This document shows, in pieces, positions 59,495 to 62,799 of a DNA stretch of 64,000 nt. The position numbers and the translations under genes are program-made. Each line of letters starts with the position of its first letter. Position 1 is the first letter of the stretch. The DNA is from Pirellulales bacterium. Its GTDB lineage: Bacteria; Planctomycetota; Planctomycetia; Pirellulales; Lacipirellulaceae. The notes beneath the pieces were generated by a model. The model searched no databases and was not told where the DNA came from. It saw only the letters and a program-made list of their open reading frames with translations. The stretch spans positions 83,137 through 147,136 of the forward strand of contig JAKVCC010000009.1 of assembly GCA_022448265.1 (NCBI GenBank), read 5' to 3'.

Positions 59495-59545
59495 GTGAGA
59501 TTCTGCCAACTGTCTGGATTATCAATTCGTGGGCAGACGCGCACC

Positions 59546-61015
59546 ATGGCCAAGGAATTGACTGCTGAAGAATTGGCCCAACGTGCTTTGGATGTCGATG
59601 TTGTGAAAGAGTCGGACCTGCGTCCTATTTGGGGCGAACTCGGCACCCACAATGTTGATTGCGAGCAATTCAAGAAGCTCTTGGTGCGCCGCGGTCTGCT
59701 CACCAACTTTCAGATAGAACGCCTGCTTCAGGGTCTGCGCGCGGGCTTCTTCTATGGCGATTACAAGGTGCTCTATCTTGTTGGTTCCGGGACGTTTGCC
59801 CGAGTTTATCGTGCAACACATCGGGAGAATAACGAGCTCTACGCGATCAAGGTGCTGCGCAAGAGTAAGAGCGACGATCTGGAGGAGGCCGAGCTATTCC
59901 GCCGGGAAGGTGAGTTGGGAATGGGCCTTAAGCACCCCAACATTGTGGCGATTCACGAGGTTGTTTCCAAGGGTAAGATCCATTTTCTGGTTATGGATTT
60001 TGTTGAAGGAAATAACCTGCGCGACTTTGCCAAAGTGCGGGGCAAGCTGGAGCCCCTGGAGGCAACTCGCATTGCCGAGGGCATGGTTGCGGGTTTGAGT
60101 TACGCGTTCCAAAAAGGTGTAACCCATCGCGACTTGAAGATGTCAAACGTGATCCTCTCTAGCGATGGAGCGTCCAAGCTTGTTGATTTTGGACTGGCGG
60201 GACTTGGTGGGACTGGGATTGAAGACATCGGCGACGGGGGGAATCAACGGGCCATCGATTATGCGGGTCTGGAGCGTTCTTCAAACGTGCGTAAAGGGGA
60301 TAATCGAAGTGACATTTTTTTCGCCGGTTGTATCTATTACCAATTGCTGTGTGGCCGCGCACCAATGAATGAAACGCGAGATCGCGCTCAGCGGCTTAAT
60401 AAATCGAGATTTAAAGATATTGTCCCGATCACGAAGATTTCTCCCGAATTGCCTTTTCCACTAGTACGTGTGGTCAATAAGGCACTGGAATTCGACGTGG
60501 AGCGGCGCTATCAGTTGCCAGGGGAAATGTTGGCCGACCTGAAATTGGCCGTGAAACGGGTCAAGCAGCATGGGGACGGACAGCCAATGGCTCGCATGGA
60601 GTCAGTTCCTATGGAGGGGCATGACGAGTCGGGCGAAGCACGCAAGCTGATGATCGTTGAGTCGGACACGAAGATGCAGGATCTCCTGCGCGCGCTTTTC
60701 AAGAAGCGAGGGTATCGTGTGCTGGTGATCAGCGATCCGGAACGAGTATTTCAGCGATTTTATGAGGACAGCCAGATGGCCGACGTGTTGTTGGTCAGTG
60801 CCGGAAACCTCGGCGCGGCGGCGGTCACAATGTTCAATCGTCTCGGCGAAGAGTCAGCGACCAAACACGTGCCCGCCGTTCTGTTGCTCGGCGATCAGCA
60901 AGGCGGCTGGCAAGACCAGGGCGGTCTTGGCCCTCAGCGCGCGGTAATCCAAATGCCGCTCAAGAGTCGTCAGCTCCGCGAGGCCATATTAGGTGTCCTT
61001 CGCGGTGAGGGCTAA
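59546..61015 (+). CDS. Ser/Thr protein kinase with C-terminal degenerate receiver domain
   Basis: 489 residues from ATG 59546; GTG 59495 abuts the preceding stop and is possible. An N-terminal helical part (1-70) precedes the kinase: GSGTFARVYRA loop (80-90), Lys 102, HRDLKMSN (194-201), DFG (214-216). There is no clear APE; the region reads AIDYAGLERSSN. The C-terminus (about 370-489) has a receiver fold: KLMIVESDTKMQDLLRALFKKRGY, then ADVLLVSAGNLG where the phosphoacceptor Asp should be, then HVPAVLLLGDQ and QMPLKSRQLREA with the conserved Lys. The Asp is replaced by Ser, so it is a pseudoreceiver. Confidence 0.88.
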   Translation: MAKELTAEELAQRALDVDVVKESDLRPIWGELGTHNVDCEQFKKLLVRRGLLTNFQIERLLQGLRAGFFYGDYKVLYLVGSGTFARVYRATHRENNELYAIKVLRKSKSDDLEEAELFRREGELGMGLKHPNIVAIHEVVSKGKIHFLVMDFVEGNNLRDFAKVRGKLEPLEATRIAEGMVAGLSYAFQKGVTHRDLKMSNVILSSDGASKLVDFGLAGLGGTGIEDIGDGGNQRAIDYAGLERSSNVRKGDNRSDIFFAGCIYYQLLCGRAPMNETRDRAQRLNKSRFKDIVPITKISPELPFPLVRVVNKALEFDVERRYQLPGEMLADLKLAVKRVKQHGDGQPMARMESVPMEGHDESGEARKLMIVESDTKMQDLLRALFKKRGYRVLVISDPERVFQRFYEDSQMADVLLVSAGNLGAAAVTMFNRLGEESATKHVPAVLLLGDQQGGWQDQGGLGPQRAVIQMPLKSRQLREAILGVLRGEG

Positions 61016-61154: not shown

Positions 61155-61622
61155 TTACACAGCGTCTTCGGCGTCTTCGGCGAGTTTCTCCTCGATGGAG
61201 CTGATCTTCTCCACGCGACGCTGATGACGGCCTCCTTCGAATTCTGTCTTGACCCACACTTCGACCATGCGTTCTACACTATGGGGGCTTAGCATGTCGG
61301 CAGACAGGCACAAGACATTGAGATCGTTGTGCCGCCGGCTCATTTCCGCAGTGATTTCGTCAGTACAGGCCGCCGCGCGGACTCCCGGAAATTTGTTGGC
61401 GGCGATTGCCATGCCGATACCGGTGCCACAGACAAGAATGCCTCGCGCACAGTCCCCCACGCTGACCTGCTGGGCCACTAGGGCGGCAAAATCAGGGTAA
61501 TCGACGGACTTCGCCAGCGAGGTTCCCACGTCCGATATGTCGTGGCCTTTTGATCGTAGAACGTCAGCCAGTTTTTCCTTGAGATGATAACCACGATGGT
61601 CGCTGCCGATCACAATTCGCAT
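61155..61622 (-). CDS. rpiB: Ribose-5-phosphate isomerase B
   Basis: 155 residues from ATG 61622. MRIVIGSDHRGYHLKEKLADVL, SVDYPDFAALVA, GILVCGTGIGMAIAANKFPGVRAA and DLNVLCLSADM are RpiB/LacAB motifs; the catalytic Cys is in CGTGIG (about 66). It interconverts ribose-5-phosphate and ribulose-5-phosphate. It starts 34 bp after the Sua5-YwlE fusion on the same strand. The C-terminus (about 140-155, EKLAEDAEDAV) is acidic and extra. Confidence 0.95.
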   Translation of the reverse strand: MRIVIGSDHRGYHLKEKLADVLRSKGHDISDVGTSLAKSVDYPDFAALVAQQVSVGDCARGILVCGTGIGMAIAANKFPGVRAAACTDEITAEMSRRHNDLNVLCLSADMLSPHSVERMVEVWVKTEFEGGRHQRRVEKISSIEEKLAEDAEDAV

Positions 61623-61656
61623 GGGGAAAGACCTTTCAAATAAATCGTTGTGTCGC

Positions 61657-62799
61657 CTAAGAAAAATCAATCTCGGCTATCCGCTCTTGCAGAGCGCTGG
61701 TAATTTGATCGGCACAGGCACGATAAACAGTCAGGGAACCGCCAATGGGATCGTTGATGTCGCCCCCATCACCACGCAAAGTATGCGTCCGTTCCGCGCA
61801 CTCAGGCCAGCGCCGGGTCAGCGCATTTCGATGTCCGCCTGTCAGCGTCAAAATGATGTCAGCGTGACGGACGAGTTTGTCGGTTAGCGGCTGGGACTCG
61901 TGTTTCGAGAGGTCCATGCCGCGTTCCTGCATGACTTCAACGGCTTCACTACTCGGTGCGCAATCCGATAGGGCCGCGATGCCGGCTGAGGCAATGATGA
62001 TGCCGTGCTGTTCAAGTTGGTTATTGGGCCATTGCATTTTTTTCGCGACCAAATGACGCATCACGACCTCGGCCATGGGGCTTCGGCAGGTGTTGCCCGT
62101 GCATACGATTAGTACAACCATGCTAGAAAGACGATCCAATGTGGACTGGCTTACGACTCCCTCGCGAATACAGCGACATTTGCTACCGGTCGTTTGGACA
62201 ACCGAGGATGGTTGGCCGTAGCGACACGGGCCATCGTCAAGCACCAGGGCCACCTGGTCTCCCAAACTGTCTACCGCTTCTTTCGCTGTAACCGCTGCGG
62301 GCTGGCCTGAAAGGTTTGCACTCGTCAAGGCGATGGGGCCTGCCAGCATTCTCAGTGTATCAAGTACCGTGTCGTGTGCTGGCACGCGTAATCCGAGCGT
62401 ACCGTTAGGCGCTACTGCGCGTTGAACCATTTCCGGCAATTGACCGAGCAGTCCTTCGTCGGCAGCGTGCGCTTCGCGTTGAGGCAAGTCGACGACCAGG
62501 GTTACCGGTCCCGGCCAGCAGCGCCGCGCCAATCGCTCAGCCACCCGGCCCAATCCCGGAACGTAATCTAAGGCTTCTTCCGCACTCTTGATAGCCAATG
62601 CTAAAGGGGCCTCCGGGTGCCGGCCTTTCGCAGCGAATATCTTATCGATTCCCGCGGGTTTGCGAGCGCACGCCCCAACGCCGTAGACCGTCTCTGTCGG
62701 GAAGACAACCAGTTGGCCTTCGGTCAACGTTTGGACCGCTCGATGGACGACGTCGCGCCGGTCATCCGTTTTTTTGAGGTCGATCACGATCGGCGGCAT
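61657..62799 (-). CDS. Fusion: Sua5/YrdC threonylcarbamoyl-AMP synthase + YwlE-like phosphatase
   Basis: 380 residues from ATG 62799; the frame extends to 62955 but the first 52 codons lack homology. Residues 1-225 are a Sua5/YrdC domain (GQLVVFPTETVYGVGACARKP, IFAAKGRHPEAPLALAI, PIALTSANLSGQPA), first step of tRNA t6A synthesis. From Met 227 a low-molecular-weight phosphatase begins: P-loop CTGNTCRS (Cys 233, Arg 239) and the general-acid region DINDPIGGSLTVYRACADQI. The Thr at the fifth P-loop position is that of B. subtilis YwlE, a protein-arginine phosphatase. In B. subtilis ywlC (Sua5), ywlE and ywlF (RpiB) are neighbours, as in this operon. Confidence 0.88.
   Translation of the reverse strand: MPPIVIDLKKTDDRRDVVHRAVQTLTEGQLVVFPTETVYGVGACARKPAGIDKIFAAKGRHPEAPLALAIKSAEEALDYVPGLGRVAERLARRCWPGPVTLVVDLPQREAHAADEGLLGQLPEMVQRAVAPNGTLGLRVPAHDTVLDTLRMLAGPIALTSANLSGQPAAVTAKEAVDSLGDQVALVLDDGPCRYGQPSSVVQTTGSKCRCIREGVVSQSTLDRLSSMVVLIVCTGNTCRSPMAEVVMRHLVAKKMQWPNNQLEQHGIIIASAGIAALSDCAPSSEAVEVMQERGMDLSKHESQPLTDKLVRHADIILTLTGGHRNALTRRWPECAERTHTLRGDGGDINDPIGGSLTVYRACADQITSALQERIAEIDFS

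Follow-up and report, generated by a model that had tools for sequence, protein, structure and literature searches.

Why should a Sua5-family domain, expected to serve the t6A modification of tRNA, and a YwlE-like phosphatase domain of the LMW-PTP class be encoded as a single polypeptide? The window analysed here, a stretch of 64,000 nucleotides from a Pirellulales bacterium, raises this question through a gene that lies directly upstream of rpiB (Table 1). An initial annotation had read the gene as Sua5 fused to a YwlE-like phosphatase with rpiB next to it, and this reading is confirmed, with both domains and the P-loop CTGNTCRS in one frame and only 34 bases between the fusion stop codon and rpiB, which scores 179.2 bits to NCBIfam model TIGR01120 (cut-off 138.65). 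A frame convergent with rpiB, at window positions 59495-61015 on the plus strand, resembles in translation a Ser/Thr protein kinase whose C-terminal part looks like a receiver domain.

Table 1. Features of the Sua5-YwlE fusion gene and its downstream neighbour, in window positions.
Feature	Position	Strand	Remarks
Sua5-YwlE fusion gene	61657..62799	-	ATG at 62799, stop ending at 61657; 380 aa + stop; ORF, Pfam, NCBIfam; homologue-backed start
Sua5/TsaC (YrdC-type) domain	62158..62730	-	residues 24-214; K58, R60, S160, N162 present
Join	62104..62157	-	residues 215-232; Gly214 to Cys233 = 19 residues
YwlE-like LMW-PTP domain	61687..62115	-	residues 229-371
Phosphatase P-loop CTGNTCRS	62080..62103	-	residues 233-240; Thr237 = PX5
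General-acid motif Asp350-Pro351	61747..61752	-	DPI here, DPF in YwlE
Met227 codon at joint (proposed internal start)	62119..62121	-	not conserved
rpiB, ribose-5-phosphate isomerase B	61155..61622	-	155 aa + stop

Pfam finds Sua5_yciO_yrdC (E = 2.5e-45; 154.6 bits to PF01300) and LMWPc (E = 2.3e-25) in the fusion protein, and the Sua5 half scores 149 bits to the equivalog model TIGR00057, L-threonylcarbamoyladenylate synthase, against a cut-off of 123.2. The start at 62799 is supported because a Pirellulaceae homologue, L002, begins with the same thirteen residues, MPPIVIDLKKTDD, from residue 1, and because the stop-to-stop frame of locus L005 measures 379 residues. The KxR and SxN motifs, which form the catalytic motif of Sua5/TsaC, are complete in the Sua5 half. 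The protein thus shares with Sua5/TsaC structures such as 6f89 and 2eqa the YrdC-type catalytic domain and its conserved Lys, Arg, Ser and Asn; unlike two-domain Sua5, it has no Sua5_C (PF03481) among its Pfam matches, and the phosphatase occupies the position where Sua5_C would follow.

We are moderately confident that this is one bifunctional protein, combining Sua5 with a YwlE-type phosphatase, a judgment drawn from sequence. Its N-terminal half is predicted to make threonylcarbamoyl-AMP for tRNA t6A, because it belongs to the family, keeps its catalytic residues intact and is the only PF01300 (Sua5-family) gene found in the source genome, which is 97% complete; two genes of the TsaD family are also present there. 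Joining of neighbouring genes in a Sua5-YwlE-RpiB cluster would most likely have produced the fusion. In B. subtilis, ywlE presumably lies near rpiB, in what we take to be the same Sua5-YwlE-RpiB order (ywlC, ywlE, ywlF).

The fusion is widespread in the phylum. Of 246 Planctomycetota genomes, drawn evenly, 236 match the fusion protein, and 233 match PF00217, the kinase family read here as McsB. We examined 131 loci, one from each of 130 better-matching genomes plus L002, a set chosen by match and not at random, from which some matches were left out. Both domains share one open reading frame in all 131 of these better-scoring loci, so the fusion is not due to chance. Fourteen more fused genes were found among other matches (nine in family f26, three in f58, and one each in f87 and f30), bringing the fusion to at least 144 of the 246 genomes; the first 130 genomes supply 57 family codes, to which f26, f58 and f87 are added. 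A profile search of contigs returned two loci, one of them fused.

Does the Sua5 half remain an enzyme wherever the fusion occurs? Separate Sua5 genes were judged by us from PF01300 tables, with partial cross-checking, and may be missed in incomplete genomes; frames of about 760-950 residues were set aside as HypF by length only. Forty-four genomes are at least 97% complete, and 32 of them carry the fusion. In the 13 of these for which no separate Sua5 was found, once frames of about 760-910 residues had been set aside as HypF, the PF01300 score of the fused half lies between 119.9 and 179.1 bits, versus 93.1 bits or less in 18 of the 19 with a separate Sua5, G194 giving no match. The exception, G200 (5% contamination), has a separate Sua5 yet a fused half scoring 141.2 bits. 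Six of the separate genes (from G087, G048, G002, G111, G200 and G209) were scanned with Pfam, and all six contain Sua5_C. In G209 and G200 (loci L228 and L230) the separate Sua5 with its Sua5_C shares one open frame with an upstream HAD-like hydrolase domain, perhaps another phosphatase-Sua5 fusion, to judge from the domain matches.

The same division appears in the active-site residues. The PF01300 search covered 88 of the genomes behind the 128 labelled loci, and the Lys/Ser/Asn set of the fused half (K58, S160, N162) is broken in 26 of the 29 with a separate Sua5 versus one of the 59 without. The genomes that depart from the pattern are G209, G161 and G031, each with a separate Sua5 and an intact fused half, and G149 (90% complete), with a broken half and no separate gene. 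A plain Fisher test, which ignores kinship, gives p = 6e-18 for the association; a tree-corrected test has only four supported independent pairs, of which a mean of 1.8 agree and none oppose (sign test, p = 0.5). The broken label, set after the alignment had been seen, applies to 27 of 128 loci in nine families, with at least nine changes on a quick tree of the phosphatase domain; L127 and L133, whose Sua5 half is cut by a contig end, and the named locus L002 were left out. In the 27 broken cases, the residues that define the label are kept in 4% (K58), 11% (N162) and 41% (S160), while among residues outside the label T100 (44%), R212 and G40 are kept in 44-48%, and Gly28, Gly97, Pro140 and Gly214 in 100%. 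Where a separate Sua5 exists, the fused half has mostly lost its active-site residues, which is a new finding.

What persists in these proteins is the rest of the architecture. Gly214 and the catalytic Cys lie 19 residues apart in 116 of the 131 loci, 20 in 12 and 21 in three, and in every one of the 27 broken cases the spacing is 19. Because the join is nearly fixed in length, the two domains are probably packed in a defined manner; an AlphaFold model of the fusion protein, made with one relative as added input, was too poor to reveal the packing (pLDDT 45.9). The catalytic Cys, Asn, Arg, Ser and Asp-Pro of the phosphatase are present in all 131 loci, the 27 broken ones included, and 26 of those 27 have Thr at PX5. 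Close pairs of broken loci show purifying selection: of nine such pairs, seven have dN/dS of 0.06-0.18 in the Sua5 half and 0.03-0.20 in the phosphatase half, the other two being saturated. Since the phosphatase site and the 19-residue join are kept and selection is purifying, the Sua5 fold is probably of use to the phosphatase even where catalysis has been lost. The broken fused half would most likely help the phosphatase as a module for structure or targeting; a second role is suggested because its catalytic residues are mostly lost beside a second Sua5, yet selection has retained it. We put forward only tentatively a stronger version, in which Planctomycetota have their phospho-arginine eraser built onto the t6A enzyme, and in which the Sua5 fold became, several times over, a pseudo-enzyme without catalysis whose task is to position or regulate the phosphatase, perhaps by binding ATP, threonine or tRNA, so that arginine dephosphorylation would track the state of translation.

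The same data may also be read as a frozen accident, in which the loss of a stop codon merged two adjacent genes, the halves work independently, the fusion persists only because separation is hard, and a broken half is needed for the folding or translation of the phosphatase. The neighbourhood suits this account, with 91 of the 131 loci having a downstream rpiB in the same orientation (one has it on the opposite strand; of the 39 in which it was not found, 38 offer 700 bases or more of sequence beyond the fusion). So does the solved structure 4egs, an LMW-PTP filed as RpiB, in which, by the entry's molecule name only, a YwlE-like domain is apparently joined to a gene neighbour as in the fusion, although the partner would be RpiB and not Sua5, hinting at a join to the other neighbour. 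Two genomes of family f66 (G231 and G242) have the Sua5 and phosphatase halves apart, and therefore the join can be dispensed with. In 16 intact pairs divergence is similar in both halves, the largest gap being 15 points, and in five wider pairs from family f4 the broken half drifts faster, at 28-44% identity versus 54-73% for the phosphatase, with dN/dS of 0.25-0.44 for the broken half in the four pairs where it could be estimated. Together with the conserved join and phosphatase site and the selection in close pairs, this divergence fits a domain freed of catalysis whose fold or surface would still be needed. A purely passive half, however, should lose its fixed join and drift, but the close pairs retain the low dN/dS and all 27 broken loci the 19-residue join given above. 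We regard the frozen accident as possible and rather doubtful. As a separate observation, the fusions of family f26 appear to drift in reverse of the f4 case, the Sua5 half being intact by eye and the phosphatase divergent.

Under the favoured reading of one bifunctional protein, the C-terminal half would act as a phosphatase of the YwlE type, taking off the phosphate that the genome's own McsB puts on arginines. The likeness to YwlE proposed earlier holds up in a structure search, where the closest solved relative of the phosphatase half is the arginine phosphatase YwlE 4pic (E = 7.1e-22), which we take to be from Geobacillus, followed by 4egs (1.2e-21) and a second YwlE, 1zgg (3.8e-20); the remaining bacterial LMW-PTPs begin at 1.8e-13 and arsenate reductases at 1.7e-7. 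With YwlE of Bacillus and Geobacillus (1zgg, 4kk3, 4pic) the fusion shares the LMW-PTP domain, the signature C(X)4CR(S/T) in the form CTGNTCRS with Thr at PX5, and the general-acid Asp-Pro. Unlike YwlE, it is joined to Sua5, carries some nine additional residues following the first helix, and ends its DPx triad in Ile and not in the aromatic residue of DPY or DPF, which may or may not be a defining feature; across the 131 fused loci the third residue is Phe in 19 and Tyr in 10. The initial annotation singled out the Thr after Asn in CTGNTCRS as the residue of phospho-arginine preference, in agreement with the available part of PMC8001253, where Thr at PX5 is reported to steer YwlE and PtpB to phospho-arginine, and Ile to phosphotyrosine. 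From these features we infer that the phosphatase half would be specific for phospho-arginine.

It is also conceivable that the phosphatase acts mainly on another substrate, such as phosphotyrosine, another phosphoramidate or a small molecule, and that McsB has a different eraser or none; we consider this improbable. At PX5, 108 of the 131 fused loci have Thr and 14 have Ser (122 together), versus Ile in 20 of the non-fusion LMW-PTPs read in the phylum, a sample made up of the higher-scoring matches and a few more with repeats removed, in which Thr occurs in seven, Ser, Ala or Gly in four, and eight did not match the motif pattern. Of the seven Thr cases outside this fusion, six belong to family f13, some of them joined to DUF4202, and the seventh is G231. 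The nearest solved relatives being YwlE, and the occurrence of the kinase family in 233 of 246 genomes, likewise speak for arginine. Another substrate is favoured by the DPI triad and by the PX5 residue of some fused genes, which is Leu, Ile, Met or Arg in nine of the 131 loci and Leu or Ile in eleven more; the genomes concerned all carry the kinase family. All nine fused loci of family f26 (L248-L256) have the P-loop C-x-GNLNRS, with Leu at PX5 and the second Cys replaced by Asn, and Ile stands at PX5 in two of the three fused loci of f58. As all nine of the Leu/Ile/Met/Arg genomes carry the kinase family, Thr at PX5 is a weak marker of McsB.

Several other variants of the phosphatase were noted. 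In f13 (L206, L207, L220) one frame encodes DUF4202 (PF13875) together with a YwlE-like phosphatase that has CTGNTCRS, which gives this phosphatase a second fusion partner, and in L212 (genome G112) an LMW-PTP with the P-loop CTANACRS is joined to a NUDIX domain. The second LMW-PTP of the source genome (L224) has the P-loop CTGNSCRS. Nine of nine loci in family f61 (L108, L109, L114, L115, L117, L121, L122, L149, L159) have Asp in place of the second P-loop Cys; this Cys is tied to redox control in YwlE, and because of its replacement the f61 phosphatases may be insensitive to oxidation.

Protein-arginine phosphorylation in this organism was also predicted by the initial annotation, and the absence of McsB that would speak against it does not hold. 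On contig C4 of the source genome, an McsB gene with a phosphagen-kinase domain and a C-terminal domain follows a UVR-bearing McsA-like gene, with a four-base overlap, and its product matches solved protein-arginine kinases at E = 2.4e-86 (8wtb) and 2.6e-86 (6tv6) over residues 11-358. At the phospho-arginine receptor site of McsB, as described in the available part of PMC8370763, an alignment read by eye shows R337 and R341 kept and D338 replaced by Asn. The R-x3-R pattern occurs in all 12 McsB loci parsed of 30 taken, the other 18 being unparsed because one strand was translated. The genome also encodes a Clp ATPase, taken here for ClpC, that contains IGTEH and VGTEH repeats; such repeats bind phospho-arginine. 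The phosphatase would oppose marking for a ClpC-type protease. A profile search for CtsR found no match in the source genome, the control matching in Lactococcus lactis. The PF00217 control had no match in 14 named genomes, among them B. subtilis, which carries mcsB; Clp_N and CtsR likewise had no match in the B. subtilis control, whose copy may be missing the mcsB-region operon.

Strict pairing of McsB with the phosphatase is rejected. In f45 the kinase family is present in all ten genomes searched, seven of which have no LMW-PTP match, and the kinase likewise occurs without an LMW-PTP match in four of four f76 genomes and five of eight f35 genomes. Because the kinase is present without an LMW-PTP match, these families may have another eraser or none, which lends some weight to another substrate for the fused enzyme. 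Conversely, a kinase match is absent from 13 genomes. Four of these, all incomplete (73-88%), belong to the 130 with the fusion and keep the fused phosphatase, which also favours another substrate; in G004, G028 and G107 the one LMW-PTP read in each has Ile.

Separate production of the phosphatase from the internal ATG at 62121, as had been suggested, is very unlikely, for an ATG, present at the joint here, occurs there in only 21 of the 131 loci (five with a purine-rich tetramer upstream) and not in the other 110, and no Shine-Dalgarno-like site precedes 62121.

Among open-access papers, searched by title and the start of the abstract (subscription papers and preprints lay outside the scope), none concerned the fusion or McsB in Planctomycetes. 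Two candidates were set aside: PMC7293339, on Stieleria, is in its available part about a t6A dehydratase, and PMC4395418, as far as available, mentions McsB only in its reference list. Mycolicibacterium is also named in the accessible portion of the literature on protein arginine phosphorylation.

Protein arginine phosphorylation has been studied chiefly in Firmicutes. A whole phylum in which the kinase family occurs beside a candidate eraser in fused form would extend the known range of arginine phosphorylation and offers a clear target for study. The Sua5 half has decayed repeatedly while the join and the phosphatase were retained, a natural experiment for telling the t6A role of this domain apart from whatever it may do for the phosphatase.
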